Shown here piece by piece: positions 1 through 17,014 of a DNA stretch of 64,000 nucleotides. Origin of the DNA: Alphaproteobacteria bacterium (GTDB taxonomy: Bacteria > Pseudomonadota > Alphaproteobacteria > Acetobacterales > Acetobacteraceae); NCBI GenBank assembly GCA_026400815.1, contig JAPLOI010000033.1, positions 62,001 through 126,000 of the forward strand, given 5' to 3'. The stretch's first letter is position 1; every line of letters begins with the position of its first letter. Both the position numbers and the translations under genes were made by a program. The notes under the pieces were generated by a model. It saw only the letters and a list, made by a program, of their open reading frames with translations, did no database searches and was not told where the DNA came from.

Positions 1-2464
1 GAGAAGCTTCCAGTTCGGTGCGGGCAAAGGGGAGGGGAGGCATCGCCGCGAACAGCCGCGCGCTATCGGTGCAATCGCTCCCGAACGTCCGGGTAGCTTG
101 CGCCAATGTGGCGGGACGGAAATCCCCGAAGCCGAACCACGGGCGGCTGGCGCGGGAGTTGCCGGCGATCTTGCGAAGGGACACGAAATTAGCAGCGGCG
201 GGAACGTGGGAAATGGCTGCACGGCGAATCAGCCACGGCGCTGTCGCGATTGCTTCTGACGAGGCGGGACCCGTGAGAAGAAGCTCGAATGGAAGTGACA
301 GAAGGGGACCGGACGGAACGATGACCATCGCCTCCGCGCCTTTGAGGTCATCCTCCAGCCCTGCAAGGGTAGCCCGGTAGATCGCATGTGCCGCTTCGGT
401 GTCGAATGGCGGAGGCGTGCCAGTGGTGTTCTCGATGCTGTTGCGGACGCGTCGGACGAGGCGGGTGATTTCCGGAAGTCCGCCGCGAATGGGAGAGACC
501 GCGATACGACCGTTGCGTAGCGCGAATGCCCACCCGCCGGAGTCGCTCAAGGCGAGAGAGACGAAAGCCTCTTCCGGGCCGAGTGAACCGAGAACATCTG
601 CAGCGGGGGCAACCTGCTGTACCAGCTGGCCATAGTTGGGCGAGGCGACCTGAAGTGTGCTGTCCGCGTCTGCGGCTTCCTCTTGAGCCTTCACAATCTT
701 GGCATCGAGATCTGGCGACGCGGATTGGGCGTTCGTGCCAGCCGCCGGTTCAAGTTGGTCGCGCTCGCGATACAGTTCCGCAAGCCGGGCACGGATATCC
801 TCACGTGCGCGGATGGCAGCGGCTACCTTGGGGTCGCGCGCATTTTCCGAAAGCCGCGCCGTCGCCTGCGCGATCTGCTGGCTTGTCACGCCGCCTTGAG
901 CAAGTTGCGCTGCCTCGAACATTTCGCCCAGCCATTTCTGGCTTTCGCTGGGCCGGGTGCTGGCCGCGGCCGCAAACGCATCCAGACAAGGGGCAAGCAG
1001 AACTGCGTCCGTGCCGACACGCAGCTGACGGAGCAGTTTCACAGCGCGCAGGCAGGTATCGTCGGCGGCGCTGGTCTTTCCTGCGCTGACCATCTGCCCT
1101 GCGCGCAGCAGCAATGTCTCAGCCAGCGGCCGGCTATCTGGCAAGGCTTGAGAGAAGATGGCGGCGGCACGGGCGTATTCCTCTGCGGCAGCTGCGGCGC
1201 CCTCGGTTTGGGCGACGATGCCGCCACCTGTTCTCGCCAGTCGTGCCGTGATGACGGGTTGGCGTAGCCCGTTGCCGGACACCAGTTCGCCGGCCTGCCG
1301 TAACGCGGCTGCGCTATCCTCCAGTCGCCCGGCCCGACGGAGCAGGGCAGCTTCGCGGCGCCGCACTTCAATCAGGCCCAGAAGGGCTGTGCGAGTGGAG
1401 GGCGCAGACAGCATCTCGCGACTTGGGAGGAGCTCGGCCATACCGGAGCCCGCCCCTGTTGCGCCTACCCGCGCGGCCGCGCGGGGGCGTGCATTGCGGA
1501 CTTCGTCCGGCAGGTGTGCGGCATAGCCGCGACCGGCACGTGCCAGAAGGGCGAGAGCGTCATCGGCTTTGCCCTGATTGCCTGCATGCAGGGCTTGGTA
1601 GTGCAGAAGGCGTACTGTCTGGAGCGGATCATCCGCGGCCGCGGCAAGTCTGCCCGCCCGGGTGAAAAGCGCGTCTGCCTCTGCGAAACGGCGTTGGTTG
1701 GAGATCTGCAGCGCAAGCGAGATCAGGCTCACGACAATGTTCGGGTTGTCTGGGCCGAGTGCCTTCTGTTGGAGGGCCAATGCGGCCCGCAGGTTTTTCT
1801 CGGCCCCGGCGAAGTCCTCGGTGCGGTTTGCATCATCGGCGACGCGTATCAGTCTGTCGTATTCACCAACATCGCCGGAGGAGAACGCGCGTGCAGCAGC
1901 GCGCTCGGCCAGAAGCCGTTGCGCGGCGCCGCCTTGAACATCCAGTGCTGCGGATGCTGCGGGCAAGCGACCGGAAAGCACGCCAATGCCACGTTCCACG
2001 ACTGGCCATGCGGGCTGCACACCGTCGGCAAGCCAGGTGCGGCCGTCGACTGTTGCAACGAGTGCGACATGTGCCCAGCCTCCGACCCTTCGTGTGCATT
2101 GCAGCAGCAGGGCTGGTACATTGCCGAGGATTGTCGTGGCGGCTGGTGGTTGACAGGAAAAGCGCTGTTCTAGGCCCGCGCGCCATGGCCCGCTTATCGC
2201 AATCTCCGCTGGCGCTGCAGGCGAGCCTGTCGGCGGCCGCCGTATTCGGGCACTGGGCTGCAGCCACGACCCGCAATATACGTCCGCACCTTCGCCAACG
2301 GCGCTTTGGGAGCAGTCTTCCCCCGATGCGTTCTTGCCGAGTGCGACGCCACCTTCGGATCGGCGGGACTGACTACCGGTGACGTAGGCAGCTTCAGGTG
2401 GCCTGGAACAGGCGGCGAGCCCAATGATGAGTGCAGCGACGAGGTTGGGGACCAATCGCCGCAT
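1..2464 (-). CDS. TPR-CHAT domain lipoprotein (3' end off the window)
   Basis: Translating the minus strand from the ATG at 2464-2462 gives 821 codons with no stop up to the left edge, so the C-terminus is missing. Residues 1-19 are a short lipoprotein signal ending in the lipobox LAAC (Cys19), so the product should be membrane-anchored outside the cytoplasm. Residues about 215-540 are alanine-rich helical repeats; one segment, with LGPDNPNIV near 237-245, looks like a kinesin-light-chain-type TPR. From about residue 690 the pattern (IYRATLAGLEDDL, then VIVPSGPLLSLPFELLL) is the N-terminal half of a CHAT domain, a caspase-fold cysteine-peptidase-like domain. The catalytic His and Cys would lie beyond the window, so activity cannot be judged. 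The start codon is 1 nt after the tpsA stop (TGA-C-ATG), which implies coupled translation in one operon with tpsB and tpsA. Role is inferred: processing or sensing linked to the exoprotein. Confidence 0.88.
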   Translation of the reverse strand, partial: MRRLVPNLVAALIIGLAACSRPPEAAYVTGSQSRRSEGGVALGKNASGEDCSQSAVGEGADVYCGSWLQPSARIRRPPTGSPAAPAEIAISGPWRAGLEQRFSCQPPAATTILGNVPALLLQCTRRVGGWAHVALVATVDGRTWLADGVQPAWPVVERGIGVLSGRLPAASAALDVQGGAAQRLLAERAAARAFSSGDVGEYDRLIRVADDANRTEDFAGAEKNLRAALALQQKALGPDNPNIVVSLISLALQISNQRRFAEADALFTRAGRLAAAADDPLQTVRLLHYQALHAGNQGKADDALALLARAGRGYAAHLPDEVRNARPRAAARVGATGAGSGMAELLPSREMLSAPSTRTALLGLIEVRRREAALLRRAGRLEDSAAALRQAGELVSGNGLRQPVITARLARTGGGIVAQTEGAAAAAEEYARAAAIFSQALPDSRPLAETLLLRAGQMVSAGKTSAADDTCLRAVKLLRQLRVGTDAVLLAPCLDAFAAAASTRPSESQKWLGEMFEAAQLAQGGVTSQQIAQATARLSENARDPKVAAAIRAREDIRARLAELYRERDQLEPAAGTNAQSASPDLDAKIVKAQEEAADADSTLQVASPNYGQLVQQVAPAADVLGSLGPEEAFVSLALSDSGGWAFALRNGRIAVSPIRGGLPEITRLVRRVRNSIENTTGTPPPFDTEAAHAIYRATLAGLEDDLKGAEAMVIVPSGPLLSLPFELLLTGPASSEAIATAPWLIRRAAISHVPAAANFVSLRKIAGNSRASRPWFGFGDFRPATLAQATRTFGSDCTDSARLFAAMPPLPFARTELEAS

Positions 2465-2465
2465 G

Positions 2466-5400
2466 TCAGTAGTCCTCTTCGGAGACGTTGGGCAGTTGAA
2501 CGTCTGTGTCGTCTTGGGTGGGCCGATCGCGGATGATCGGGATATCACGCAGCGGGCTGATGGGTGGCACGGTTTGAACAGGGATGAGAACGCAGTTTAC
2601 CGAACTGATGGGGCAGGTATTGAAGCGGTATTCACTGCCGGGTTGGGGTGAGATGCTGGCACGATTGGCTGCAGCCTGGCCGTCGACACCTGCGATACTG
2701 CCGAACAGTTCGGCCCTACCGCCCGCGCCCACAACCAACAGGCCTGCGACATCGATCGTGCCAGTTGCGGCGCCGCCTGAGCGCGTGATGAGAACAAGGT
2801 CTGTGGTCTTGCCAGTCAGTTGGCTGATCGAGACGGTGCCGGCCTGTGGGTGGGGCAGAACGAAGTCTAGCGTGCTGAGCTGTGTTGAGAATGGTGCGAC
2901 GTTGATTCTGCCGACCTCAATCCTCGCTGGAGCCCCGAAGCTGGAGGTGGCTGCAAGGTAGCTCCCCAATCCTGTGACGGTACGCCCTGCAATCTGTGTG
3001 GCCGTCAGGTTGCTGCTGACGCCCTGAGTACTGCGCGATAGGCCGTCGGTGATGATGCTGGTGCCATCGGAGAGGCGCAGGTAACCAGTGGCTGAAATGC
3101 CGAGTATGCGGGCGGTTGTCGTGCCGCTGACAGTGAGGGGCATGGCATTGTTCAGCAGGAAGTTGCCATTGGCGAGGAAGGCGCCGGCGAAGTTTTCCAC
3201 CTCGTTGGGGCCGGCCAACGCAACATGGCCTGTCCTGGTTGTAGCAGCCGATAGAGTGGCGGCCACAATGCGTCCTGGGGCCGACACTCCCGTGGCCGTC
3301 TGCAGTAACAAACGTCCGGCGGGAGCCTCGGCCGAGCCGGAGAGTGTGATGCCGCCGTCGGGAGTGGCGAGCGTGGTCGCCATCTGTGAGCCGCTGGCGA
3401 TCCGGCCCGTGACATTGATGGCCGCAGGACCGGCGCCCAATCCGGCAATGGAGACATTTCCCTTGGTGGCGCTCAGCGTACTCGCCACCGTGACTGGGAC
3501 GGAACTGGTGAGGGTAACATCTCCGGAGTGGACCACCAGCGTTCCAATCCGGGCGATGCTGTTGGCAGGCAATGCCAAGGTGACGGCACCTGCCACGCTG
3601 GACGCCTGAAGTGTGTCTAGGGAAAGAGCGCCGTTCGTTTGCGTAACACCACCCGTGCCGGCAAGCAGGTCCAGGATTGCCGCGTCGAGGTTACTGCCCA
3701 AGGTGATGCCAGCCGTGGGGTCCGTCACCGCCAGCTTGGCTGTGCCGGAGACGGAGATAGGGCCTGCCACTGTGAGCGCCGGACCGGCAGCACTGCCTGT
3801 CAGGACAAGATTACCGTTTGGGATGATGATTGGGCCTTGGATGGACAGTGCTTGGCTGTCGAAGATGCTTAGGTTTCCGGCCCTGACGGTGAATGGGCCG
3901 AGCGTATTGACGCTGTTGGAGGGTTGATCGAGCAGCACGGAGCCAGTGACGCCGTTGCCGCTCTGAAGCCTCCCGGCGATGATCGTGCCCGTCGTTTGTG
4001 TCACTCCACCGGCCCCTGCCGCGAGGTCCAGCAGGCCCGTGTTCGTGGCATCGACTGTGCCTGACATCGTCACGCCACCGCTGGGCGAAAGGCTCGCCAA
4101 TGCGATCGTGCCGCCTGGTGCTGTGCGCGTGGTGCCGGCAATGTTGATGGCGGCGATGTTGGCGCTGTCGGCGATCAGTGTGATATCCGTCGCTGACAGA
4201 ACGCCCGCCACTGTCAGCGGCACGAAGCTCCAAAGGGCGAAGCTGCCGCCGGATACTGCGAAGTCATCCAGTTTTCCGATCGAGTTCCCGGCACTCAGGT
4301 CTACCCTGCCGGTCACACCGGCGCTGCTGCGCAGGGTGCCGGCTGTGAGCGTAGAGCTTCCAAACTGCTGGATGCCGGCACCGGCGTTAAGGTCGATGGT
4401 GCCGGTGGGCGAGGCATTCAGGTTGCCCAGGGTGAGTGCGCCTGCCGCCTGTAAGCGGATGGTGCCGCCTGTTGCGGTCGTGATCCCTAGGGACGCGACG
4501 TCGATTCCTCCACTTGAACTTTGGAGGTCTACGTTGCGCGCGCTTAGATCCTGCGCGTTCAGCGCGCTGTTGCTGCGCAGCGTGAAGTCGCCATCAGACA
4601 CGGCGAACCTGAGGATGGACCCAATCGCATTTCCGGGTTGGAGCAGCGTCACGGAGCCTGCAACACCTTCGGTGCTGCGCAGCGTGGGTGCCCTGATGCT
4701 GCCGCCGAGTTGTGCCATGCCGCCTGCCCCTGCGGAGAGGTCCAGAATGGTTGCGTCGACGTCTCCACTCAGCGTGATGCCGCCATTCGGGTGGGTCGCC
4801 CGAATGGTCAGGAAGCCTGCACCGTTGTTGAGGTTGCCGTTGGCAGCGAGGGTGCCGCCAGGAGCCAGGATGATGGCTGCGCCAGGGGCGGCGCTGCTGA
4901 TCGCAACGCTGGTAGCAGTCAATGGGCCCGTGATGGTCAGCGGGGTAGCGTTGGAAAGAGTGAAGTCGTTGCTGGCAACGGTAAATCCATCGATGGACGC
5001 AATCTTGTTTGCTTTCTGGCTCAAGGCCACTGCGCCGGCGGATCCGGTGGTGCTGCGGAGCGTTGTGGCCACAATACTACCGCCCGTTTGGATGATTCCA
5101 TTGGTGCCGGCACCAAGGTCCAGGATCTCCGCCGCAGCGACGCCGGATAGCGCTATGCCGCCGCTTGCGCTTGATGCCTGAAGCGTGAGGCTTGCGCTGG
5201 CCGAAGCACTGCCGGTGAGGGAGATCGCAGTTCCGGCGGCGGTGCCGAGAACGGACAGGTCTTTCGCAAAGAGGGGGCCGGTGATCGTGAGGGGGACGCT
5301 ATCCGTCAGATTGGCCTTTCCAATAACCTTGAGGCCGGCGATCGTACCGATGGCATTCGATGGCTGCGCCAGGACAAGATCACCGCCAATCCCAGTGCCA

Positions 5401-8400
5401 CTCCAAAGCGTCCCCACGATCACGGTGCCTGCGCTTTGGGTGACGCTACTGCCGGCGCTGAGGTCGAGAATGCCGGTGGCCGAGCCATCCAGGAGACCAC
5501 CGAGTTCCAGGGCCCCGGTAGCGCCGGTGGCCGCCAGTGTGATCCGACCGCCTGGTGCGACGACCAGATCACCTGGAACGCTGATCGCCGTTCCCGCAGC
5601 CGAGTTGGCGATATCCAAGACGTCGGCCTTTATGGCCCCGGTGATTGTGAGGGGAATGCTGTCACGCAGGGTGAGGGTGCCGCCTGTGATGGTGGTGGCG
5701 CCCAAGACGGCGATGCTGTTGTTGGCTCGGTCCAGACTCACGTCGCCGCCGTTGGCGGAGGCACGCAGCGTTGTGACGGCTATGCTGCCGCCAGGCTGAG
5801 CGATGCCATGGCGACCCGCCACGAGATCCAACTGGTCTGCCGTGATGGTCCCGGCAATGGAAAGGCCACCCTGCGCCCCCCGGGCGCCAAGAGCGATAGA
5901 CGCCCCCGGGGCGGTGAGGTCGCCCACGATGGAAAGCGCGGTTCCCCCGGCAGTGCTGTCGATCTTGATGCCATGCGCCGACACTGTGCCGGAAACGGCC
6001 AGTGCGATGCTGGTGGCCAGCGAGAATGCTTTCCCGGCCACATTGAAGTCCCCGAGTTCAGCGATCATATTACCTGTCCGAGACAGGGTGACTGGGCCTA
6101 TTGTCCCGTCTGTACTATAGAGTGTTCTCGCAACAATTCTGCCACCAGTCTGGGCAATGCCCAAGGCGCCTGCCGACAGGTCAATGGTGCCCGTGGGGCT
6201 CGCGTCGAGCACGCCTGGGAGGGAGATCCCGCTCGCAGTGTCCTTGGCCGTGAGGGTGATTGTGCCGCCCGCTGAGGTCACGATGGCGCCAGGAACGGCG
6301 ATCGCCTTGCCACCCGGGAGCGCTGTGATGGCGACACGGTCCGCCGCCAAGGTGCCGGAGATGGTGAGCGCTGCTGCATTGCTAAGGGTGAAGGCGCCGG
6401 CCGAGACGGCGAAACCCGATATCTCGGTGATGCTGTTCGTGGCCTGGTCAAGCGTGACCGAGCCGGTAGCCCCGCTCGTGCTGGACAGCATCTGGGCCTT
6501 AATCTGTCCGGCTGATTGTGTGATGCCTGCCGACCCCGCTGAAAGGTTCAGAGTGTCGGCCTGGATGTTGCCAGTAAGGACCATGCCGCCAGTCTGGGCG
6601 GAGGCTGCAAGGGAGGCTGTTTCGTGGGCCGTGAGATTGCCGCTCACTGAAAGCGCCGTTGGTTCCGCTGCGGAGCTGCGAATGGTGATGGCGTCGGCGG
6701 ATACGGTGCCGACCACGTCGATGGGGATGCCGGAATGAAGCGTGAGTGCCGCTTCTGATACGCTAAGGTCCGCCAGCTTGCCGATGGCATTGCCAAGTTG
6801 ACCAAGACTGGTCGCACCGCCGATGCCGGCCGTGCTGCGCAGGGTGCCGGCAGAAAGGGTGCCTGCGGATTGAGAAATGCCGCCCTTGCCCGCGCTAAGA
6901 TCAAGCATCAATGCCGAGACCGTACCGGAGAGTGCGATACCTCCGCTTGGGCTGGAGGCTGCCAACGCCATGGCGCCTGCCGAAAACGCGCTACCAGTGA
7001 TCGAAAGTGCGGTGCCAGGGGCGGTTGCCGTGAGGGAAACCGTGGCAGCCGAAAGGAAGCCACTGATGTCCAACGGGATGTTGCTTGTGATGCTCGCCGT
7101 TCCGCCTGCTGCAAGCGTACCAATGCTCTTGATGGCATTGCTGGTACGATCGAGCGCGATATCGTGGCCAATCGAGCCGGCACTCCGAAGCGTTCCAGTG
7201 GTAATGCTTCCGTTGGCCTGGATGATGCTGGTGCCCGCCGTGAGATCGACTACACCGGTGAGGGACGTGTTGAGCGCGCCTGTGAGGTCGATGGCTCCAG
7301 CCGGGTTGCTTGCGTTGAGGGTGATGAGGCCGCCGGCGTCTGAGATCAGGTCGCCGGCGACGGCGATTGCGGTCCCTGACGCAGTATCTGTCAAAGAGAT
7401 ACTCTTGGCAGTCACCTTCCCTGCAACAGTCAGGGGGATGCCATTGACCAACACGAAGCTGCCGCCTGTCAGTGCCGTGTCGCCGAGGGTCGCGATGCTG
7501 TTCGAGGGGCGATCGAGGGCAGCGCTGGCACCATTGACGGTGGTGCGGAGTGTCGTTGCAGTAAGACTGCCAGACGGCTGAACGATTCCACTGGTGCCGG
7601 CGGTAAGGTTGACCTCGTTTGCAGAAAGTGTTCCGCCGAGCGAAAGGCCACCTGAAGGACTGGATGCGGTCAGGCTCAGCGCCCCGCCTGGCGCCGATAG
7701 GCCACCCAGCAGGCTTATGGCTGATCCGGATGCCGAGCCCACTATGGAAATGCTACTCGCCGTGACAGTCCCTGGGATCGCAAGCGCTGAGCTGGTGGCA
7801 AGTGAAAAGCTGGAGCCGGTAACGGAGAAGTCGGCCAGGGAAGCAATCTTGTTCGTCGATTGCGCCAGAGCCACAGGCCCTTCGGCACCGGCACTGCTTC
7901 GAAGCGTGTTGGCGGACATAAAGCTGCCGGATTGCGTGATGCCTCCACTTCCTGCGGAAAGGTCGAGTGTGCCGCCTGGCGCGGTCAGCGGACCAGAGAG
8001 GGCGATGCCTCCGGCTGGGTTGGGTGCAGCGATGATGATGACACCGCCGGCGCTGGTGGCGATGGACCCCGTAACCGCGATCGCCTTGGTGCTGGCAGCG
8101 GTGCCCCGCAGGGTCACATTCCCCGCCAGGATGTTTCCGGCCACGATGAGCGGGGATGAATCGGCCAGGATCAGGTCTGCGTTGGGAACGGAGAATGGGC
8201 CGAGCGAGGTGATGCTGTTTTCCGCCTGATTCAGCGATACAGTTCCCGCGCTGCCGCTGGTGCTGCGGAGTGTTCCGGATGTCAGCATGCCGTCTGTCTG
8301 GTTGATGCCGAGCGTGCCAGCCGACAGGTCCAGCGTGGACGCCTGAACGACACCCGCAAGGATGATCCCGCTATCGGTGCGTGTGGTGGCGAGCAGCGCT

Positions 8401-11400
8401 GTGCCGGCGACGTCGAGCTTGCCCGTATCCGTCAGGGCAAGGGTCGTGCCGCCGCTGCGCAAGGTGACGTCATGGGCGGTCACTGCGCCGGTAACGTTGA
8501 GTGCGATGCTATCGACCAAGGTGAAGGCCGCGCCGGCAGCAGAAAACTCACCCAAGGTGGCGATGGCATTTCCTGCCCGGTTGAGCGAGACATTCCCCTT
8601 GGAACCGCTGGTGCTGCGCAGCAGGCCCGTCGTCATTGTTCCTGCGGGCTGGGCAATACCGCCACGGCCGGCTCCAAGATCGATGGTTCCAGTGGCGGTG
8701 GCGTTTACCTGGCCGGACAGCGTGATGCCGCCGAGCGTGTTGGTGGCGGCAAGCGCGATCGTGCCACCGACACCCGTGCTGAGAGTGCCTCCGATATCGA
8801 GCGCTTTTGCAGACGCGGCGTTGCTTCGCAGGCTGATGGCAGCTGCGGAAACCGTGCCAGGTACGGCGATGGTCCCTTCGTTCGCGATGGCAAGGCTGCC
8901 CGCAACGGTCAGTGCACCAAGAGTGCTGATACCGTTGCCTGGCTGGGCGATATCGAGCGTGTCGGCTTTGGCGGTTAGGATAGGGACGGACAATCCGCCT
9001 TGTGTCTGGATGATGGAGCCGCTGGAGATGAGCTCCAGGGTCGTCACAGCTGGCGAGATCGCATCAGTCAGAGTGAAACCACCTGCCTGGTTCGTGAAGC
9101 CCTTGGACGTGGCTTGTCCGATCCGAAGGTGGTTGGCGGCAATGTTGGCGAGATCGCCGAGGGTGAAATCACCCAGGGCAGTGCCCAGGCCAATCGTGGC
9201 GGTGCTGGTGGTTGGGCCGATCTCAACGATGCCGCCCGGAGCTGCGAGGGCGCCTGACCCGAGGAACGTCATGCCAGGGGCGGCGAGGGAGAGAACGGTC
9301 CCGGAGCCTGCGCTGACGGGACTGGAGACAGCGACGCTCTTGTCCGATGTGAGTGTGATACTGCCTTTGGCAGCGAGTGGACCAAGGCCGGAGATGTTGT
9401 TTGCCTGCGGAAGAGCCAAGGAGCCAGCGATGCCTCCGGAGCTTCGGAGCGTGCCGGCGGTAAGGAGACCGGCGGTTTGCGCGACGCCGGCGGAGCCCGT
9501 GGAGAGATCGACGATACCTGTGGGAGTGGCGGAAAGGACGCCCGAAAGAACAATCCCGCCCGCAGCGTCACTGGCCGACAGGGTTATCTTGCCACCAGCT
9601 GATGTGCCGAAGGCGGGCGATGACACGGCAATGGCAACGGGTGAAGCGGCGCTGCCGGTGAGCGTTATGTTCGCTGCGGCAACAGGGCTTGCCGCTGTAA
9701 GAGGTCGCGTCGACGCGAACCGAACATCGCCTGTGGCTGTGAGGGTGCCGATTGTGGAGATGGCATTGGTCGCCTGAGCGAAGGTGGCGCTGCCAATTGT
9801 GCCAGTGGTCGCGACCGTCGCGGCGGTGATCTGGCCGCTGGTTTGGTTGATGGAGCCGCTGCCTTGAAGCAGCAGGGCGCTGGCACCTGGTGTGACAATG
9901 CTGCCAGCCAAAGACGAGATACCGGAGGCATTCGACGTGGCGAGTGTGATTGTGCCTGGCGATGTAAGCTCCAGCATACCCTTGGTGGACAAGGCGAGGG
10001 CTGGCCCAGTGGCACTGCTGAGCAGTGCAATTGCTGGGGCCCGGATGGTATCGACGATGCTGAGTTGTGTGCTGCTGCCAACCGAGATTGTGCCCGTGGC
10101 GCGCAGCGGGCCGAGCTGGCTGATCACATTGTTGGGGTGATCGAGCCTGATGAATCCTGGAACCGGGTTACCGCGTGTGCTCAGTGACTTGGTCGAGAGC
10201 ACCCCGGCCGTCTGCATCACGTTCGCCGATGCCGTCACAACCTCAAGATTGGACGCACTGAGTGTGCCGCCCGTCAGCGATATGCCGGATGCTGCGTCGA
10301 GGTGGAGCAAAGAGGTTGCGGCCTTCCGGGTGTCGAGGTCGGCCCGCAGCGTGATGGCGCCTTTGCCGCTGGCCAGGCGCAGGGTGCCGGTTGTGATTGC
10401 CGTGATGTCTGGCTGCAGCAGGGAGAGCTGGCCCGGGGTGTTCAGGCCGAGGCTGATCCCGGTATTGGCCCGGATCTCAACGGTTCCGGAGGGTGCTGAG
10501 ATGGCGCCGGCCGAAACCGTGAATGTGTCCGCCACAATGCTGATCGACCTGGTTGTGTCGACAGCGAGTGGGCCGGACAAGATGAACCCTGTGCCGGCCT
10601 TGGTCCCTAGGGCGATGTCGCCCCCTTTGGCCACCACGCCACCCACGCTGGTGAATGTGTTCGCCGTGTTGGTGGCAGAAAATGCACCCACCGTGCCGAG
10701 GCTGCTGAGCAGCATGCCAGCGCTGATCGTACCGGGTACGGAAACGCCGCCAGCGCCTGTGACAGAGAGGTCCAGCGTGCCAGCGGCGGCAATCGTACCG
10801 CCGATGCCAATGGCGCCCATCGCACCGCGGCCGATCAGCGTGACATCCTTGCCAATGATCGTACCCGGGACCGAGATGCCACCCGCCAGTGGGTCGTTCA
10901 CATCCAGCAGCAGGTTCCCGATGGTGACTGAGACAGTGCCCACGACGGCCATCGGGCCTGTATTGGCCAAAGCCATGTTGCCGGCGATGACAGCGAGGTT
11001 GCCAATGCTGGCGAGCTCATTGTGGGCGGATCGAAGATCTACATTCCCCCCGATCCCTGCCGAACTGGCGAGGCGTGTTGCCCTCAGCCTGCCGGCGGAT
11101 TGCGTAACGCCGCTGCCGGCCACCAGGTCGATGGTACCGCCTGGCGCACTGACATCCGCGCCCAGTTGGATCGCGCCAGCAGGGTTTGTTGCAAGCAGGG
11201 CGATGCTTGCCTTGTTGGTTGCAATCGGCCCGGTGATGTCGAGCGTGCCTGCCGCGGTTGTGAGAAGGCTGATCTTGCCGGTACCTGATGTGACCGGCCC
11301 GTTGACCTTGAGCGACGTGCTACTGGCCAGGGTGAATTCGCTGGCGTCTCCCACGAGAAAAGATCCCAGGGACGCGATTGCATTGCCTGGCGCTTCCAGC

Positions 11401-14400
11401 CGTACTGCACCCCCGCTATCGCCGCTGCTCTGAAGTATGGACGCAGTCAGGGCGCCGCTGGACTGTGTTATGCCCCCCGTGCTGGCGTTGAGATCAACCA
11501 CCGCCGCGGTGATCGTGCCCGACAACGCGATGCCGCCTGCGTTGTCCAGCGCCGACAGCGTTATGGAGCCGGTGGCATTGATGGTGCCCGTCACATTCAA
11601 GGCGCTAGGATCTGCTGCGCCGCTACGGAGCACGACATTGGTGGCAGACACGGGGCCGCCAACCGTCGTGGCAACGGCACTGCGGATTCCCAAATTGCCG
11701 CCTGCGGACAGAGCGCCAAGCGTGAGGAACTGATTGCTTGAGGTGTCCAGGCGGAGTGAACCAGACGTGTTCCCAGTCAGTACGCCGGCTGCGACTGTCC
11801 CGCTCGTCTGGATGATGCCACCGGTGCCCGCTGTGACATGAAGCGTGCCCAGCAACGATGCGTCGAGCCCTCCGGATATGGCTATGCCACCGACTGCATG
11901 ACTGGCTGACAGGGTGACAGCGGCACCCGTATCGCCCGTGAGTTCGCCAGTGATGGCGATGGCCTTCGCATCTGCCGCTGTGGATTCGATGCTCGCGCCC
12001 TTGGCGAAAACCCTGCCGCTGATGTCCAGGGCCGCGCTTGTAGCCAAGGCGAGCGTCCCGGCAATTTTCGTATCGCCCAACGCGCTGATGCCGTGAACGC
12101 TGGTCGCCAGTGCGACATTGCCGATGATGCCGGTCGTGCTCTGCAGCCGATTGGCGACGATGGAGGAGCCGGCGAGGCCATGTACGCCGCTGTCCATGGT
12201 GTTGAGATCGAGCGTGTTGGCTCGCAGCGCGGCCCCGGTTTCGAGTGTGATTCCACCATTGCCTGCATCGATGCGGAGCGTGGACGTGGCGGCGGTGGAG
12301 GCGTCGAATGGGCCGCGCACAACGACACTTTCCGCGACGGTCGCATCGGATGTCGTTCGGCCAAGACGCAGAGTTGCGCTGCTGATCCTGGCAAGAGCGG
12401 CATTCGTGATGGCGAGTTCTGCTGCTGCGGCATTGCCCAACGTCATGCTGCCGGCATGCAGCGGTGCGATCTCAACCGTCCCGCCGGCGGCGGCGATTGT
12501 TCCCGCGGAGATTGTCAGGCCCATGGGACGAAGCGCGATCGTGCGTCCCGCGTCGATCGTCAGTGTTCCCGCTACATCAAGCGTGGATTTGGTCGCCAGC
12601 AGAAGGTCGCCGGCGGCGATCTTGATGCTGCCAAGCGAGCCGATAACGTTATCGGTGCTCGCAAGCACAAGGCTCGCGCCGATGGTGCCGGCACCGGCGA
12701 GGGTTGGTGTGGTGATGCTTCCGGAGGTTTGGCGAATGCCGCCGGCGCCAGCGGAAAGGCCGACAGAACTCTTGCTTGTCACACTGCCGGACAGCGTGAT
12801 GCCGCCCGCTGCGGCATCGGTTGCGGCCAGGATCACGGTGCCGCTTGGGCTTTGTGCGGCAATGGTTCCGGGGACGGAAATGGCAGAGGCGCTCGCAGCG
12901 CTGCCTGCGATGAAGACCGTGTTTGCCGTGACAGTGCCGGCGACCGTAACGGGCGCTGAGCTGGCGACAACGAGGTTCCCGCCGGCAACGGCAATGTCTC
13001 CGATGGTGCTGATTGCGTTCGCGGCCCTGGGCAACGTCACGCTGCCGGTGGTCCCCCCTGAACTGGCCAGCGTGCCGGCAACGATGAGGCCGCCGGTTTG
13101 GGTCACACCGAGAGTGCCGCTGACGAGGTTCAGAACCCCGCTATTGGTCGTGTCGATGGTCCCGGCAAGCGAGATGCCGCCACTGCCCGGCGCAGAGAGC
13201 GAGAGGGATGATCCCGGAGAGGTCAGCGCAAGACTGCCGGTGACCTCAATGGCCTTTGCAGAATTCGACAGGCTCTTCAGGCTGCTGTCGCCGCCCAGGG
13301 TAACGCCGCCGGTGACGTTGAGCTCGCTGGCATTGGTCAGGACAATACCACCGCCGATGATGGCGAGCTTGCCGAGGGTGGCAATGGTGTTGGTTGGGGA
13401 CGTCAGCGAAAGCGCGCCAGAAATGCCGCCGCTGCTCAGCAGGGAGGTTGCGGCCAAACTGCCTGTGGTCTGGAGAATGCCGCCTGAGGTGGTTGAAAGA
13501 TCAACCGCGCCGGCCCGGATGTCGGCGCCGAGGGTGATGGTATCGCCCGCCTTCAGCGACAGGGTTCGGGCCGGGTCGATGGAGATCGGGGCATTGACCG
13601 CGATTGTGCTGCCGGCCTTGAAGGTAACGTTGCCAATGGTGGCCGCGCTTGTCGTGTCGAGGGCGGAATTGATGCTAAGGGTGCCAATGGCCTCAATCTT
13701 GATGTTGCCTGACAACAGCAGGATGTCGGCCACGTTGAGTTGGGTCGTCCCTGCACCGGCCTTCGTCGTGGTGCTTTCCTTAGTCTTGGTCGGCGCACCG
13801 GGGCCAGTCGTACTGCTGCTGTCGGAGATGATGAGATCAATGGGATCGAGCACGATGGTGCCGATGGCTCCGGCAGGGGCGGTCACGTCCGCCCGGCCGC
13901 CCAACGCGACGGTATCACCTGATACTTCGATGTAGCCGCCATCGCCGCCCGTTGTACCTCCGCGCGCGGAAGCCTCACCTTTGTGCTGTGTCGTGCCGCC
14001 CTGGCTGAGGATGGTGACATTACCGCCCGGGCCATTGAGGGTGGCGTCTGCGGCGATGCGCGCACCGGATTCGATGATGACGTCGCGGGCGGTCGGAGCC
14101 TTTACCGTGGGACCGCCCTTTGCCCGGGCGATGGTGGTGCCGATGGCGGCCGTGCCACCCCCGGACTTGCCAGAAACATCAACGCGCGCGGCTTGCTTGA
14201 GGACGACGGTTCTGGAGGGGGCATTGATCTCGACCTGGCCGCCCTTGCTGCCGGGGCTGATGCCTTGCGCCAGGATTGTTCCGGTAACGGCCACATCTCC
14301 GCCGTTGGCCTTGATGGCGACCTGGCCAGTACGGGTGCCGACCGTGTTGGCGCGAACGGTACCGCCCGCAGTCACCAGGTTCTGGACGACGCCATCGACA

Positions 14401-15296
14401 GCACTTGCGGTGAGCAGGATCGTGCCGCCATCGGCAACGATCGTGCCGGCATTGGTGACGAGTGCGGTGGCTCCCTTGCCGTCAGCACCAGCCGGAATGT
14501 GCGTGACCTGGCGTGTGACATCGATGGACAGCAGCCCATCGCCATAGAGATCGACCGTATGGGCTTCCGCCCCTGCCAGAACAACGCGGCCCATCTGGCC
14601 ACGAATGACGCCCGCATTGGCAACCTGGGGGGCTACAAGAGCGGCAAGGCCGGTCTGCGCCACGGTGATGCTGCCACGGTTCTCGACCTTGGCGCCCGGG
14701 CGGGGGGCCTGGTTGAAGATGAGCCGGCCTGCGCGTGCATTGGCGTCGGAGATGCCGGGCGCGGAGGCGATCAGCGTGTTGACGTTGACCTCGGCGCCTT
14801 GCGTGAACACAACGCCCGACTGGTTCTGGACCACCACCACGCCGTTGGACGCAAGCTTGCCGGCGATGACCGAGGGGCTGGTGGGGGAGATGACGCGGTT
14901 GACGGAGACGGACTGGCTGGTGGGCACCTGGTAGGTCACCGACGCACTCTTGCCGATGTCGAAGGATTTCCAGTCGTAGGCGCCATACGCGGTGGACTGC
15001 TTCACCGTCATGGCCGCGGTGCCGGCACCTGTCGTTGCGGTGATCTTGGCCTGGCCCGCAATCACCTGGCCGCCGGTGGGCAATGCCGTCGCAGCGGGGG
15101 CTGTCTGCGCCAGGGCACGTGGCGAAGGCGCAACGAGTGCGGCGAGAAAAACGGCCTGCAGGGCCGTGCTGCGCAGAAGGTCGTGGCGTGGCCGCAACTC
15201 CCTCGCGACACTATCGCATGAGCTCGCAACGCCTGGACGAGGTGCCAGCAGGCAGGCGGGACGCATGGCACCAGAACCTGTGTTGCGTGTGCGCAT
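2466..15296 (-). CDS. TpsA: giant filamentous-haemagglutinin-type exoprotein
   Basis: A 4276-residue secreted protein, the passenger of a two-partner (type Vb) secretion system. The ATG at 15296 lies 2 nt after the tpsB TAG, which is why it is preferred over a second ATG at 15266 or upstream frames. Residues 1-64 form a long Arg-rich leader with a hydrophobic core (ALQAVFLAALVA) and an ALAQ cleavage region. Residues about 70-300 are the TPS/haemagglutinin-activity domain recognised by TpsB POTRA domains: a YDWKSFDIG stretch, a VNRVI...SVIAGKLASNG stretch, and NQSG where classical members have NPNG. Residues about 597-4080 are about 28 degenerate repeats that should build a beta-helix. The C-terminus carries C4228 and C4235, the only cysteines I see in the mature part. 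Function (adhesin, biofilm or contact protein) is inferred from the family; the repeats give no ligand. Confidence 0.95.
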   Translation of the reverse strand: MRTRNTGSGAMRPACLLAPRPGVASSCDSVARELRPRHDLLRSTALQAVFLAALVAPSPRALAQTAPAATALPTGGQVIAGQAKITATTGAGTAAMTVKQSTAYGAYDWKSFDIGKSASVTYQVPTSQSVSVNRVISPTSPSVIAGKLASNGVVVVQNQSGVVFTQGAEVNVNTLIASAPGISDANARAGRLIFNQAPRPGAKVENRGSITVAQTGLAALVAPQVANAGVIRGQMGRVVLAGAEAHTVDLYGDGLLSIDVTRQVTHIPAGADGKGATALVTNAGTIVADGGTILLTASAVDGVVQNLVTAGGTVRANTVGTRTGQVAIKANGGDVAVTGTILAQGISPGSKGGQVEINAPSRTVVLKQAARVDVSGKSGGGTAAIGTTIARAKGGPTVKAPTARDVIIESGARIAADATLNGPGGNVTILSQGGTTQHKGEASARGGTTGGDGGYIEVSGDTVALGGRADVTAPAGAIGTIVLDPIDLIISDSSSTTGPGAPTKTKESTTTKAGAGTTQLNVADILLLSGNIKIEAIGTLSINSALDTTSAATIGNVTFKAGSTIAVNAPISIDPARTLSLKAGDTITLGADIRAGAVDLSTTSGGILQTTGSLAATSLLSSGGISGALSLTSPTNTIATLGKLAIIGGGIVLTNASELNVTGGVTLGGDSSLKSLSNSAKAIEVTGSLALTSPGSSLSLSAPGSGGISLAGTIDTTNSGVLNLVSGTLGVTQTGGLIVAGTLASSGGTTGSVTLPRAANAISTIGDIAVAGGNLVVASSAPVTVAGTVTANTVFIAGSAASASAISVPGTIAAQSPSGTVILAATDAAAGGITLSGSVTSKSSVGLSAGAGGIRQTSGSITTPTLAGAGTIGASLVLASTDNVIGSLGSIKIAAGDLLLATKSTLDVAGTLTIDAGRTIALRPMGLTISAGTIAAAGGTVEIAPLHAGSMTLGNAAAAELAITNAALARISSATLRLGRTTSDATVAESVVVRGPFDASTAATSTLRIDAGNGGITLETGAALRANTLDLNTMDSGVHGLAGSSIVANRLQSTTGIIGNVALATSVHGISALGDTKIAGTLALATSAALDISGRVFAKGASIESTAADAKAIAITGELTGDTGAAVTLSASHAVGGIAISGGLDASLLGTLHVTAGTGGIIQTSGTVAAGVLTGNTSGSLRLDTSSNQFLTLGALSAGGNLGIRSAVATTVGGPVSATNVVLRSGAADPSALNVTGTINATGSITLSALDNAGGIALSGTITAAVVDLNASTGGITQSSGALTASILQSSGDSGGAVRLEAPGNAIASLGSFLVGDASEFTLASSTSLKVNGPVTSGTGKISLLTTAAGTLDITGPIATNKASIALLATNPAGAIQLGADVSAPGGTIDLVAGSGVTQSAGRLRATRLASSAGIGGNVDLRSAHNELASIGNLAVIAGNMALANTGPMAVVGTVSVTIGNLLLDVNDPLAGGISVPGTIIGKDVTLIGRGAMGAIGIGGTIAAAGTLDLSVTGAGGVSVPGTISAGMLLSSLGTVGAFSATNTANTFTSVGGVVAKGGDIALGTKAGTGFILSGPLAVDTTRSISIVADTFTVSAGAISAPSGTVEIRANTGISLGLNTPGQLSLLQPDITAITTGTLRLASGKGAITLRADLDTRKAATSLLHLDAASGISLTGGTLSASNLEVVTASANVMQTAGVLSTKSLSTRGNPVPGFIRLDHPNNVISQLGPLRATGTISVGSSTQLSIVDTIRAPAIALLSSATGPALALSTKGMLELTSPGTITLATSNASGISSLAGSIVTPGASALLLQGSGSINQTSGQITAATVATTGTIGSATFAQATNAISTIGTLTATGDVRFASTRPLTAASPVAAANITLTGSAASPVAIAVSSPAFGTSAGGKITLSASDAAGGIVLSGVLSATPTGIVDLSTGSAGVAQTAGLLTAGTLRSSGGIAGSLALPQANNISGLGPLAAKGSITLTSDKSVAVSSPVSAGSGTVLSLAAPGMTFLGSGALAAPGGIVEIGPTTSTATIGLGTALGDFTLGDLANIAANHLRIGQATSKGFTNQAGGFTLTDAISPAVTTLELISSGSIIQTQGGLSVPILTAKADTLDIAQPGNGISTLGALTVAGSLAIANEGTIAVPGTVSAAAISLRSNAASAKALDIGGTLSTGVGGTIALAATNTLGGITLSGQVNATATGTIDLGAGRGGIAQPAGTMTTGLLRSTSGSKGNVSLNRAGNAIATLGEFSAAGAAFTLVDSIALNVTGAVTAHDVTLRSGGTTLALTDTGKLDVAGTALLATTRTDSGIILAGVVQASTLDLSAGTLGINQTDGMLTSGTLRSTSGSAGTVSLNQAENSITSLGPFSVPNADLILADSSPLIVAGNILAGNVTLRGTAASTKAIAVTGSIATSAGGVIIIAAPNPAGGIALSGPLTAPGGTLDLSAGSGGITQSGSFMSANTLRSSAGAEGPVALAQSTNKIASLADFSVTGSSFSLATSSALAIPGTVTASSISIVGSASGSAISLLGGLSAPGGALSLTASSPSGGLSLGGTLSANEVNLTAGTSGIVQPSGSLTATTLRTTVNGASAALDRPSNSIATLGDTALTGGSFVLVNGIPLTVAGKVTAKSISLTDTASGTAIAVAGDLISDAGGLITLNASNPAGAIDLTGALNTSLTGVVDLTAGTSIIQANGSITTGTLRSAGSIGHDIALDRTSNAIKSIGTLAAGGTASITSNIPLDISGFLSAATVSLTATAPGTALSITGSAFSAGAMALAASSPSGGIALSGTVSALMLDLSAGKGGISQSAGTLSAGTLRSTAGIGGATSLGQLGNAIGKLADLSVSEAALTLHSGIPIDVVGTVSADAITIRSSAAEPTALSVSGNLTAHETASLAASAQTGGMVLTGNIQADTLNLSAGSAGITQSAGQIKAQMLSSTSGATGSVTLDQATNSITEISGFAVSAGAFTLSNAAALTISGTLAADRVAITALPGGKAIAVPGAIVTSAGGTITLTAKDTASGISLPGVLDASPTGTIDLSAGALGIAQTGGRIVARTLYSTDGTIGPVTLSRTGNMIAELGDFNVAGKAFSLATSIALAVSGTVSAHGIKIDSTAGGTALSIVGDLTAPGASIALGARGAQGGLSIAGTITADQLDLVAGRHGIAQPGGSIAVTTLRASANGGDVSLDRANNSIAVLGATTITGGTLTLRDSIPLTITGAIKADVLDIANSAAGTAISVPGDLVVAPGGRITLAATGATGALELGGLLDGSATGILDLSAGSSVTQSAGTVIVGTLWSGTGIGGDLVLAQPSNAIGTIAGLKVIGKANLTDSVPLTITGPLFAKDLSVLGTAAGTAISLTGSASASASLTLQASSASGGIALSGVAAAEILDLGAGTNGIIQTGGSIVATTLRSTTGSAGAVALSQKANKIASIDGFTVASNDFTLSNATPLTITGPLTATSVAISSAAPGAAIILAPGGTLAANGNLNNGAGFLTIRATHPNGGITLSGDVDATILDLSAGAGGMAQLGGSIRAPTLRSTEGVAGSVTLLQPGNAIGSILRFAVSDGDFTLRSNSALNAQDLSARNVDLQSSSGGIDVASLGITTATGGTIRLQAAGALTLGNLNASPTGTIDLNAGAGIQQFGSSTLTAGTLRSSAGVTGRVDLSAGNSIGKLDDFAVSGGSFALWSFVPLTVAGVLSATDITLIADSANIAAINIAGTTRTAPGGTIALASLSPSGGVTMSGTVDATNTGLLDLAAGAGGVTQTTGTIIAGRLQSGNGVTGSVLLDQPSNSVNTLGPFTVRAGNLSIFDSQALSIQGPIIIPNGNLVLTGSAAGPALTVAGPISVSGTAKLAVTDPTAGITLGSNLDAAILDLLAGTGGVTQTNGALSLDTLQASSVAGAVTLALPANSIARIGTLVVHSGDVTLTSSVPVTVASTLSATKGNVSIAGLGAGPAAINVTGRIASGSQMATTLATPDGGITLSGSAEAPAGRLLLQTATGVSAPGRIVAATLSAATTRTGHVALAGPNEVENFAGAFLANGNFLLNNAMPLTVSGTTTARILGISATGYLRLSDGTSIITDGLSRSTQGVSSNLTATQIAGRTVTGLGSYLAATSSFGAPARIEVGRINVAPFSTQLSTLDFVLPHPQAGTVSISQLTGKTTDLVLITRSGGAATGTIDVAGLLVVGAGGRAELFGSIAGVDGQAAANRASISPQPGSEYRFNTCPISSVNCVLIPVQTVPPISPLRDIPIIRDRPTQDDTDVQLPNVSEEDY
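3060..13505 (-). repeat. about 28 tandem ~105-125-residue coding repeats inside tpsA
   Basis: By eye I count about 28 units. Each starts with a segment like LDLSAGxGGI-x-QxxG, then TLRSSxGxxG, VxLxQxxNxIxxLGxFxV, a PLxVxGxVxA segment, an AIxVxG segment and a GGIxLSGxL segment leading into the next unit. Unit length is about 105-125 residues. Copies differ enough at DNA level that the array is ancient or diversifying rather than freshly duplicated. Three units (near residues 940, 1600 and 2020) carry an extra module of another type. The alternating hydrophobic/Gly/Ser/Thr pattern is what right-handed beta-helices show; that fold is inferred. Confidence 0.85.
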
Positions 15297-15298
15297 GG

Positions 15299-17014
15299 CT
15301 AGAACCGCGTGGTCAATCGCCAGTAGATCGCATCTGCATTCAGCGCGGGCGTGTTGGACTGTGCACCAAGCGGGCGCCGGACAATCCGGCGTACCCATTC
15401 GATGTCGGCCGAAACGCTGGCGGAAAGCCGCATCCGTGTTCCCGCACCGAAGGACTGCAGGCGTCGGTTGGGGTCTGTCTTCTGGTTTTCCACGGTTTCA
15501 CCCCAGTCATAGAATGTGTAGACCGTGGCGCCGACCTCCAGCGGATAGCCCAACGCGTCGATACTGAAGCCGGTATTCAGCTGCAGTTCCATGGCTGTTG
15601 CCCAGGCCTTGTCGCCGCTGACCTGGCCCGCGAAGTAGCCACGATTGATGCGCGCACCGCCGAGGTAGAATTTCTCCGAGGAAGGCAGGATGTCTGCACT
15701 GTATTGGCCAGCGGCTGTCACTTGCAATGCAACCGAGGCCCCCTCCCAGGCGTCGAACAATGTCTGGGTCCGGCTGAATTCCATGTTGACCTTGGTGAAC
15801 TCAACAAGCTGGTTCTGTCGCCCCACGTTCACGGGATTGCTCGGCGAGGCACCGAGCGTGTCGAGGCCTCGTGATATCCTGATGGCCGCGGTGGAGACCG
15901 CACTGCGTTCAGCCCCGAGCCATGTGTCCTGGCGTGCATATTCGGTACCGGCGCGCAGCACGCGCAGATTGTCGCGGCTGGTTTGGCGGGCCGGGTCGCC
16001 GGTAAAAATCTCATTGTCCAGGAGTTCCGCAGTGCCGAACACGGACAGACTTTGCTGGCGGCTGCGGATAACGGGATAGCTCGTGGTGATGCCGGCAGTG
16101 GTGGTGATGCCATGGTAGCGATTGGCGCGCAGGGCGCCGGAAGGGTCCGCTGTTCCGGAGCCCCCGAAGAGACGGATCTTGAGACCCGATCCGCCAACAA
16201 ACACCTCCGTACCAACTTGGCCGAAGATTTGCGTGTTGTTGAATGAACGGAAGAGCGAGACGGTGGTGCGTTCGCCGTATTCGCTGAAGCTGTTGGCGTC
16301 GAGCGCAAGCAGGGCACCTTCCGGCCCCGTGAAGGGCGCGCCGCGGTTGTCGGCGACGATGGTGGCCCCCCATGGCGTCCGCTGAACCTGGGCGATCAGG
16401 GTCAGCGCGCCAGGCGCTTCGGTCGATGGCCGCAGCACGGCGCGCAGGGACACCCCTGGCACATCCTGGGCGAGGAGAAGGGCGCGCTCCAGTGTCGCGG
16501 AATCGATCGGGCGCTTCTCGGTCAGGCGATTGAGAAAGCGCAGGATCTGGGTGCCGGCCGGACCAATATCGCCATCCAGCTTCACCTCGGCGATATGGCC
16601 TTCGGTAACAACAAAGCGGACGCGGCCGGCGCCGCCATCGGCCAGAGTGACCCCTGTCAGGAGATAGCCATCGCTCCGGTAGCGCGCGAGAATGCCTTGC
16701 CGCGCCGCTTCAACCTGTGACCGGGTGAGCTCCCCACGCATCGTGTCCGTGATGGGCGCCCATGTATCGGCGTCATAGACCGTGGAGCCCTCGACGATGG
16801 CGCCGTTGATCTGGAACACGTCGTCCGGGTTGCCGGTGCTGATCGATGCGGCCCCCGGGGCGATGGCCGGCCCGCCAACCGATGGCCGCGGCACGGGGGC
16901 GATCCGCGGGATTGGCGAACCCGCAGGAACTTGCGGCAGGGACTGTGCCTTTGCGCCATCCTGAGAAGCGAACGCGAGCAGGAGGGCCAGGGGAAGCGCG
17001 CCGACAGCCTTCAT
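15299..17014 (-). CDS. TpsB: ShlB/FhaC-family two-partner secretion transporter
   Basis: A 571-residue outer-membrane transporter that should secrete the adjacent TpsA. The ATG at 17014 begins a clear signal peptide (MKAVGALPLALLLAFA, cleavage near AKA/QS) with GGAG about 10 nt upstream; the frame is open further upstream but encodes nothing signal-like. After a Pro-rich linker come two POTRA-like units (about 65-140, containing ARYRSDGYLL and VRFVVTEGHI, and about 142-212). The rest is a beta-barrel. The NRGY sequence in LGGARINRGYFAG matches the conserved loop-6 VRGY-type motif, and the protein ends in Phe (RLTTRF), typical of barrel proteins. It is the first gene of the tpsB-tpsA-CHAT operon, with 2 nt between its TAG and the tpsA ATG. 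Confidence 0.95.
   Translation of the reverse strand: MKAVGALPLALLLAFASQDGAKAQSLPQVPAGSPIPRIAPVPRPSVGGPAIAPGAASISTGNPDDVFQINGAIVEGSTVYDADTWAPITDTMRGELTRSQVEAARQGILARYRSDGYLLTGVTLADGGAGRVRFVVTEGHIAEVKLDGDIGPAGTQILRFLNRLTEKRPIDSATLERALLLAQDVPGVSLRAVLRPSTEAPGALTLIAQVQRTPWGATIVADNRGAPFTGPEGALLALDANSFSEYGERTTVSLFRSFNNTQIFGQVGTEVFVGGSGLKIRLFGGSGTADPSGALRANRYHGITTTAGITTSYPVIRSRQQSLSVFGTAELLDNEIFTGDPARQTSRDNLRVLRAGTEYARQDTWLGAERSAVSTAAIRISRGLDTLGASPSNPVNVGRQNQLVEFTKVNMEFSRTQTLFDAWEGASVALQVTAAGQYSADILPSSEKFYLGGARINRGYFAGQVSGDKAWATAMELQLNTGFSIDALGYPLEVGATVYTFYDWGETVENQKTDPNRRLQSFGAGTRMRLSASVSADIEWVRRIVRRPLGAQSNTPALNADAIYWRLTTRF

Follow-up and report, generated by a model that had tools for sequence, protein, structure and literature searches.

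The analysed stretch of 64,000 nucleotides (nt), hereafter the window (bases 62001-126000 of its contig), to which the DNA left of base 1 was added for analysis, carries on its minus strand a two-partner secretion (TPS) operon in which the transporter gene tpsB, the exoprotein gene tpsA and a gene for a lipobox-bearing TPR-CHAT protein (the CHAT lipoprotein) lie head to tail, with gaps of 2 nt and 1 nt. The conserved tpsB-tpsA-CHAT accessory of two-partner secretion is real and, as far as we searched, undescribed; what is also new here is a conserved C-terminal tag, defined by sequence, on CHAT-adjacent TpsA proteins. The full account that we propose, in which the CHAT lipoprotein would recognise the tail tag of TpsA and cut TpsA, stands in our estimate slightly above even odds (a probability of about 0.5). 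Judged from the sequences, recognition of the tag by the lipoprotein is likely; cleavage of TpsA is a guess from the intact catalytic dyad.

The operon and the conserved tail of TpsA

The layout described in an earlier note on this DNA, that is, tpsB, a tpsA of 4276 amino acids (aa) and a lipobox-bearing TPR-CHAT gene separated by 2 nt and 1 nt, was confirmed. The product of tpsB (15299..17014, minus strand) is a ShlB-type outer-membrane transporter of 571 aa with Pfam matches to ShlB (E 5.8e-21), POTRA_2 (E 3.9e-6) and Omp85 (E 1.4e-6), and thus combines the POTRA and ShlB-type barrel domains of a type Vb transporter. The adjacent tpsA gene (2466..15296, minus strand) encodes the giant exoprotein with the N-terminal TPS domain expected of a type Vb partner (TIGR01901 adhes_NPXG, E 5e-13), the core of which spans TpsA residues 108-180 (14757..14975, minus strand). 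TpsA had no Pfam match at 0.001; by sequence it resembles the structures of EtpA and of heme/hemopexin-binding protein (E 1.9e-39 to 3.4e-17). The CHAT gene, encoding 1027 aa, occupies 1..2464 on the minus strand and continues for ~620 bases left of base 1 (L002:4381-7464). Neither a promoter nor a terminator was found in a scan upstream of tpsB.

The only cysteines of the window TpsA are residues 15, 27, 4228 and 4235. The last two form a C-x6-C pair (2592..2615, minus strand), a candidate C-terminal anchor like that of HMW1 and HxuA, and the tag DDTDVQLPNVSEEDY (TpsA residues 4262-4276; 2469..2513, minus strand) starts 27 residues past Cys4235. A pattern search of the window's own genome returned this tag as the sole match.

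For comparison, 60 loci from the family Acetobacteraceae were fetched and tabulated together with the window's own locus, giving 61. Fifty-four TpsA tails were compared, excluding L069, where the tpsA stop lies ~690 nt upstream of the CHAT gene with a 267-aa frame between them, L084 and L086, which have no TpsA upstream of CHAT, and L089-L092, which have no TPS. These TpsA proteins differ widely in size (about 1340 to 4460 aa for the complete ones) but share a conserved end, with a consensus of about D-x-D-V-x-L-P-N-V-S-x-x-D-Y. The strict tag was found at the exact end of 41 of the 54 proteins, and not a single internal copy occurred in 148,311 residues. Counted from the stop codon, the final residue (-1) is Tyr in 28 tails and Phe in another 10, -2 is Asp in 46, -8 is Pro in 43, and -12 and -14 are Asp in 35 each; information at these positions is 2.9-4.5 bits, compared with a mean of 0.30 and a maximum of 0.68 at positions -100 to -400. 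A C-x6-C pair lies within the last 95 residues in 47 of the 54 tails; 26 tails have Cys at -49, and 26 have it at -42. No convincing match to the tails was found among NCBIfam and Pfam models, and a known tail domain was rejected, as there were single-member matches only, at E 0.12 or worse.

The adjacency of tpsA and CHAT exceeds chance: among the 52 loci with a lipobox start placed by script, the window included, 45 have a distance of -10 to +11 nt between the tpsA stop and the start of CHAT. Chance adjacency was rejected, since the gene order is kept both in the family and outside it. Long open frames hinted at a fusion of TpsA and CHAT; this was rejected as well, since in the loci inspected TpsA stops in a different frame near the CHAT start. 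In one genome of the same genus the tpsA region consists of two long open frames (L035:1908-13658), reflecting a true break or an assembly error.

Association of the tag with CHAT lipoproteins

Relatives of the CHAT lipoprotein were found in 83 of 200 family genomes and in 49 of 102 genera (E 1e-20), and ShlB matches in 122 of the 200 genomes. For at least 45 of 103 CHAT matches, a ShlB match lies upstream, no more than 30 kb away on the same contig and strand; many of the others lie near contig ends. The survey of TpsA-TpsB loci for a neighbouring lipidated CHAT gene, proposed in the earlier note, thus found the order conserved in the family, as it is outside.

A tail profile (A2), built from 36 of the 54 tails, matched 83 of the 200 genomes: 79 of the 83 with CHAT and four of the 117 others (2x2 table 79, 4, 4, 113; Fisher p 2.7e-45). 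Since phylogeny does not enter into this p-value and the profile was derived from tails linked to CHAT, non-adjacent cases were given more weight. Of 107 tail matches, 84 immediately precede a CHAT match and 23 do not; 21 of these 23 rows (20 regions) were examined, leaving out G198:C226 and G043:C61. Thirteen tagged TpsA proteins had no CHAT behind them: L195, L196, L197, L199, L205, L206, L207, L208 (long form of the tag), L209, L210, L212, L213 and L214 (loose form). In 12 of the 13 cases CHAT is encoded elsewhere in the genome, the thirteenth (L214) coming from a genome that is 67% complete. More than 4 kb behind the tpsA gene were free of CHAT in 10 of the 13; L210, L212 and L214 stop at a contig edge. 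In the genomes of L207 and L208, the CHAT gene stands apart from tpsA and still has a kinase gene beside it (L084 and L086). One further tail row (L211) is a cut TpsA, and five TpsA proteins (L198, L200, L201, L202 and L204) have the C-x6-C pair without the strict tag and without CHAT beside them; the genomes of L200 and L201 have no CHAT match.

The same tails bear on a different explanation, that the tag is a feature of TpsA which TpsB reads or which belongs to the anchor fold, CHAT being only a conserved neighbour. The tag and the Cys pair do sit together, the three genes are co-inherited, and the untagged L198 and L200 tails retain part of the motif, as this explanation would have it. Against it, L198 and L200 possess the Cys pair and a TpsB of their own, lack CHAT beside them, and are missing the second half of the tag. 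Moreover, of the 45 ShlB genomes (out of 122) without a CHAT match, three match the tail profile (G089, G095 and G097), none of them with a strict tag; as a control this carries little weight, given that many of these transporters serve unrelated exoproteins. A separate control of 20 ShlB loci outside the list of CHAT genomes yielded little: a TPS model found two complete TpsA proteins (L103 and L112), both untagged, and one of the 20 loci (L114) had a weaker CHAT match. We consider it improbable that the tag is meant for TpsB or the anchor fold.

Two tail classes, APPNxR (five rows) and PNxx_long with extra end residues (six rows), each fall on one side of a branch of the CHAT tree (SH-aLRT 100 and 99), an agreement that linked inheritance alone could produce.

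The CHAT lipoprotein and the downstream kinase

The CHAT domain covers residues 690-1007 of the lipoprotein (E 4.1e-47; 161.4 bits against a curated cut-off of 24), and a TPR_12 match (E 2.9e-5) falls below its cut-off. The earlier note had called for a search for the CHAT His and Cys left of base 1: both are there (His859 and Cys910), and the domain is complete. The dyad is kept in all 61 aligned sequences, the window's own included, so that a degenerate fold was rejected; the combination that the note had named as fatal to its proposal, a CHAT domain lacking both catalytic residues together with an unconserved gene order, is contradicted by this intact dyad and by a gene order kept in and outside the family. 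Besides this gene no PF12770 match was found in the genome, and no protease-like domain other than CHAT was found in the protein, that of the LapG family included.

The N-terminus reads MRRLVPNLVAALIIGLAAC-S, with a clear lipobox LAAC19 (residues 16-19; 2408..2419, minus strand). Among the 61 relatives a lipobox was found in 52 by script and in five more by eye, which makes all 57 TPS-type CHAT proteins; the four without one (L089-L092) are not beside TPS. A lipobox followed by C-x-x-P-[PS] from the lipid cysteine onwards was identified by script in 53 of the 57, and Asp occupies the +2 position in three of these 53. Under the rule on Asp at +2 in lipoprotein sorting, established for E. coli, this rarity points most CHAT lipoproteins to the outer membrane. 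Four further cysteines (51, 64, 104 and 123) are invariant in the 39 of 61 CHAT proteins aligned (A1), which fits an oxidising compartment. From these features we infer that the lipoprotein probably resides in the periplasm, on the inner face of the outer membrane. Residues 20-190, which contain the four invariant cysteines, are conserved and have no Pfam match; they are a possible tail- or TpsB-binding module.

In the predicted structure (mean pLDDT 85.1, pTM 0.83), a signal helix is followed by a small strand-containing N-terminal domain and a long run of helices, and the region of the CHAT match forms a C-terminal alpha/beta domain. Its top Foldseek matches are DdvA (E 6.5e-11), Csx29 of Craspase (E 4.0e-10) and separase (E 3.1e-9). 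The sequence of the TPR part is similar to that of kinesin light chain (profile E 2.4e-20), and the kinesin light chain structure 6f9i holds, per its entry title, a tryptophan-acidic peptide.

The earlier note had proposed that a lipid-anchored, protease-like partner processes, releases or monitors TpsA. This is supported, with cleavage itself putative, and a protease-like partner fits better than before because the presence of CHAT tracks the conserved C-terminal tag of TpsA. With a retained His/Cys dyad next to the tag, cutting TpsA there would be the simplest role. The lipoprotein might instead bind the tag to hold or monitor TpsA, as a tether or secretion checkpoint, its protease acting on another periplasmic protein or on nothing. 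The great constancy of tag and lipobox would suit such a role, as would the fact that TPR superhelices typically bind, and the joint presence of CHAT and kinase in L084 and L086, where TpsA is elsewhere, suggests that the output may be signalling. On the other hand, a dyad intact in 61 of 61 sequences argues for an active enzyme, and the Cys pair already provides an anchor; we regard a mere tether or checkpoint as somewhat unlikely.

The kinase in question is the product of a fourth gene, which starts 49 nt past the CHAT gene, beyond the left edge of the window, and encodes a Ser/Thr kinase of 710 aa with an N-terminal kinase domain (E 3.9e-56), a probable membrane helix and a C-terminal part with a DUF4384 match (E 7e-4, below cut-off). 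In the alignment of 24 kinases (A3; drawn from 26 listed as complete, out of 32 found in total), DUF4384 is matched at E 0.01 or better by 20, and the HRDxK and DFG motifs are invariant. In the kinase model (mean pLDDT 75.7, pTM 0.44), the kinase domain and most of the C-terminal part (about residues 461-708) are predicted with confidence, and the long linker between them with low confidence. Of the 54 loci with sufficient sequence, 32 have a kinase of the same family immediately behind CHAT in the same orientation and 22 have none; three more loci were too short. The 'three-part surface system' of the earlier note is therefore better called three- or four-part. The two genes past the kinase run in the opposite direction, and one of them belongs to the OmpA family.

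Other contexts and a proposed mechanism

At the level of the class, 71 of 385 genomes matched A1 at 1e-15, many over the C-terminal half only. We picked 20 loci (19 genomes) by hand among the 71 matching genomes, mainly high-scoring and near-full-length ones. The order tpsB-tpsA-CHAT on one strand was seen in 15 of the 20, from nine other families (the tpsA frame of L262 being in two pieces); the remaining five comprise one locus ordered tpsA-tpsB-CHAT, two truncated at contig ends, one in which tpsB is accompanied by an upstream frame of 407 aa without a TPS match, and one with tpsB on the opposite strand. The 19 upstream proteins from outside the family have two Cys within the last 160 residues in 12 cases and a G-N-E-x-L-W-like motif near the end in 12, often followed by up to about 20 residues. 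Both this motif and the tag of the family are acidic or aromatic-ended, a likeness to the peptide in 6f9i that is suggestive only.

Matches outside the class, at the phylum level, are mostly restricted to the C-terminal CHAT part. Among 15 plasmid regions, an annotated filamentous hemagglutinin (FHA) stands beside CHAT in three (Sphingomonas, Caballeronia grimmiae and Brasilonema, the last in convergent orientation), and 11 have no TPS context. On the Sphingomonas parapaucimobilis plasmid, FHA is followed by CHAT and has a tail reading ...GANNEELL..., and the unannotated Niveispirillum plasmid record has a long frame upstream of CHAT with a tail as in L254. On plasmid p1 of Caballeronia grimmiae (L299:7276-17498), genes for CHAT, ShlB and FHA stand in a row within a type VI secretion cluster, and the TpsA tail there does not resemble the tag; type VI genes also adjoin the FHA-CHAT pair of Sphingomonas (L293). 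On a Sphingobium plasmid (L295), the CHAT gene is followed by five hypothetical genes in one direction with no annotated TPS, and on plasmids of Pseudosulfitobacter and Azospirillum (L294 and L297) a caspase-family gene lies a few kilobases from the CHAT gene. Within Acetobacteraceae, L089-L092 represent a second unit of exporter, exoprotein and CHAT, for which a domain scan was made in L090 only: there (L090:1595-9724) a Slam-like barrel (PF04575 SlipAM, E 1.1e-4), a 1308-aa protein without a Pfam match, the end of which looks TbpB-like, and a TPR-CHAT protein without a lipobox were found. CHAT proteins thus occur in several contexts, and tagged TPS is one of them.

Such neighbourhoods could also suggest a conflict or self-killing device, in which perturbation of the exoprotein would activate the CHAT protease and lead to envelope damage or trigger the kinase. 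CHAT proteins serve defence in Craspase, the kinase adjoins in 32 of 54 loci, and the two plasmid CHAT-TPS loci beside type VI secretion genes would be in line with conflict. The predicted periplasmic placement of the CHAT protein and the specific tag on the exoprotein speak against such a device, as does PADLOC, by which defence membership was rejected: neither CHAT nor TpsB had a match, and the kinase matched many kinase models. A device of this kind is, in our judgement, very improbable.

Returning to recognition and cleavage of TpsA by the CHAT lipoprotein, we suggest the following course of events. TpsB would export TpsA with the N-terminus leading, and a C-terminal disulfide loop formed by the C-x6-C pair would stall the end of the protein in the periplasm, in the manner of HMW1 and HxuA. 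There the outer-membrane CHAT lipoprotein would meet the tag, its kinesin-light-chain-like TPR superhelix binding it, and the His/Cys caspase-fold domain might then cut TpsA near the anchor, causing release or maturation. The kinase, where present, may sense or report the cleavage step through an extracytoplasmic DUF4384-like domain.

Several observations weigh against this account. The strict tag is missing from 13 of the 54 tails, six having 1-4 extra end residues, three longer extensions (L065, L072 and L088) and four being variants; since the tag is not always terminal, a strict carboxylate clamp is argued against. L072 and L203, from the same genus, lie beside CHAT without a clear terminal tag, L203 adjoining a CHAT fragment. 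Adjacency in the profile search is partly by construction, A2 having been built from CHAT-adjacent tails, and the co-occurrence is not corrected for phylogeny. L198 and L200 retain EIEIxLP and L201 ends in LPAITEEREAEAPR; these are maybe worn tags, which weakens the control by untagged tails. 'No CHAT' means no match to the CHAT lipoprotein at 1e-20: G143 (the genome of L114) has a weaker match at E 8e-20, and G097 contains the CHAT fragment of L203. Outside the family, 7 of 19 tails have no GNE-like motif by pattern (L245 ends in GNEDED) and 7 of 19 have no Cys pair. Finally, the matches to DdvA, Csx29 and separase come with low TM-scores in Foldseek (0.2-0.35 by query length).

Parts of the scheme have parallels. 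In PEP-CTERM/exosortase and LPXTG/sortase systems a short C-terminal tag is paired with a dedicated cysteine enzyme; unlike those tags, that of TpsA has no membrane-spanning helix after it. Craspase (Cas7-11 with Csx29) likewise has TPR fused to a C-terminal CHAT protease, but is an RNA-guided CRISPR effector complex, cytoplasmic and, to our knowledge, without a TPS partner. Cas7-11 was not among the neighbours of the TPR-CHAT gene (tpsA, the kinase gene and the OmpA-family gene), no genome-wide search for it having been made. DdvA (PDB 8rot and 8rw5), the best Foldseek match (925 alignment columns), is a transmembrane anti-sigma factor by entry title, and we know of no TPS partner for it. HMW1/HMW1B and HxuA/HxuB share with our system a C-terminal Cys pair able to form a disulfide loop, by which the C-terminus of HMW1, and by expectation that of HxuA, is kept in the periplasm (PMC5422565; PMC3297439). 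Their third partners differ, being a glycosyltransferase or a TonB-dependent receptor in the excerpts available (PMC5422565), which mention no tag after the Cys pair.

The closest likeness is to CdrA of Pseudomonas aeruginosa, a TpsA protein with a periplasmic C-terminal tail that is cut by the periplasmic protease LapG (PMC5422565), under control of c-di-GMP (PMC5422565; PMC4694147) and at a site called speculative (PMC4694147). A tail held and cut in the same way is proposed here; what differs is the candidate enzyme, a TPR-CHAT lipoprotein of caspase fold whose gene belongs to the TPS operon itself, and the presence of a conserved tag on the tail and often of a Ser/Thr kinase. In the proposed account the CHAT lipoprotein would be a convergent counterpart of LapG. 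According to a 2017 review, genes for maturation proteases appear not to be part of TPS operons (PMC5422565). We found no publication linking the CHAT domain to two-partner secretion or filamentous hemagglutinin, variant spellings and most subscription papers being outside the scope of the search.

On a wider view, which is tentative and on the doubtful side, Alphaproteobacteria may possess an undescribed tag pathway in which exporters of giant proteins (TPS, perhaps Slam) would work with lineage-tuned TPR-CHAT proteases that read acidic-aromatic tags (PNVSxxDY, GNExLW) in the periplasm; a transmembrane kinase would control or sense the process, and the caspase-fold enzyme would decide between retention and shedding of the surface protein, even in trans on orphan tagged proteins.

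Few examples of regulated TpsA release are known; this locus offers a caspase-fold enzyme with a predicted periplasmic location, a defined candidate substrate and a candidate tag for its recognition. Through the tag, the role of these extracytoplasmic CHAT proteins can be tested directly, by a peptide and one point variant. If the proposed account is true, this would be a dedicated bacterial way to cut, hold or release a surface protein.

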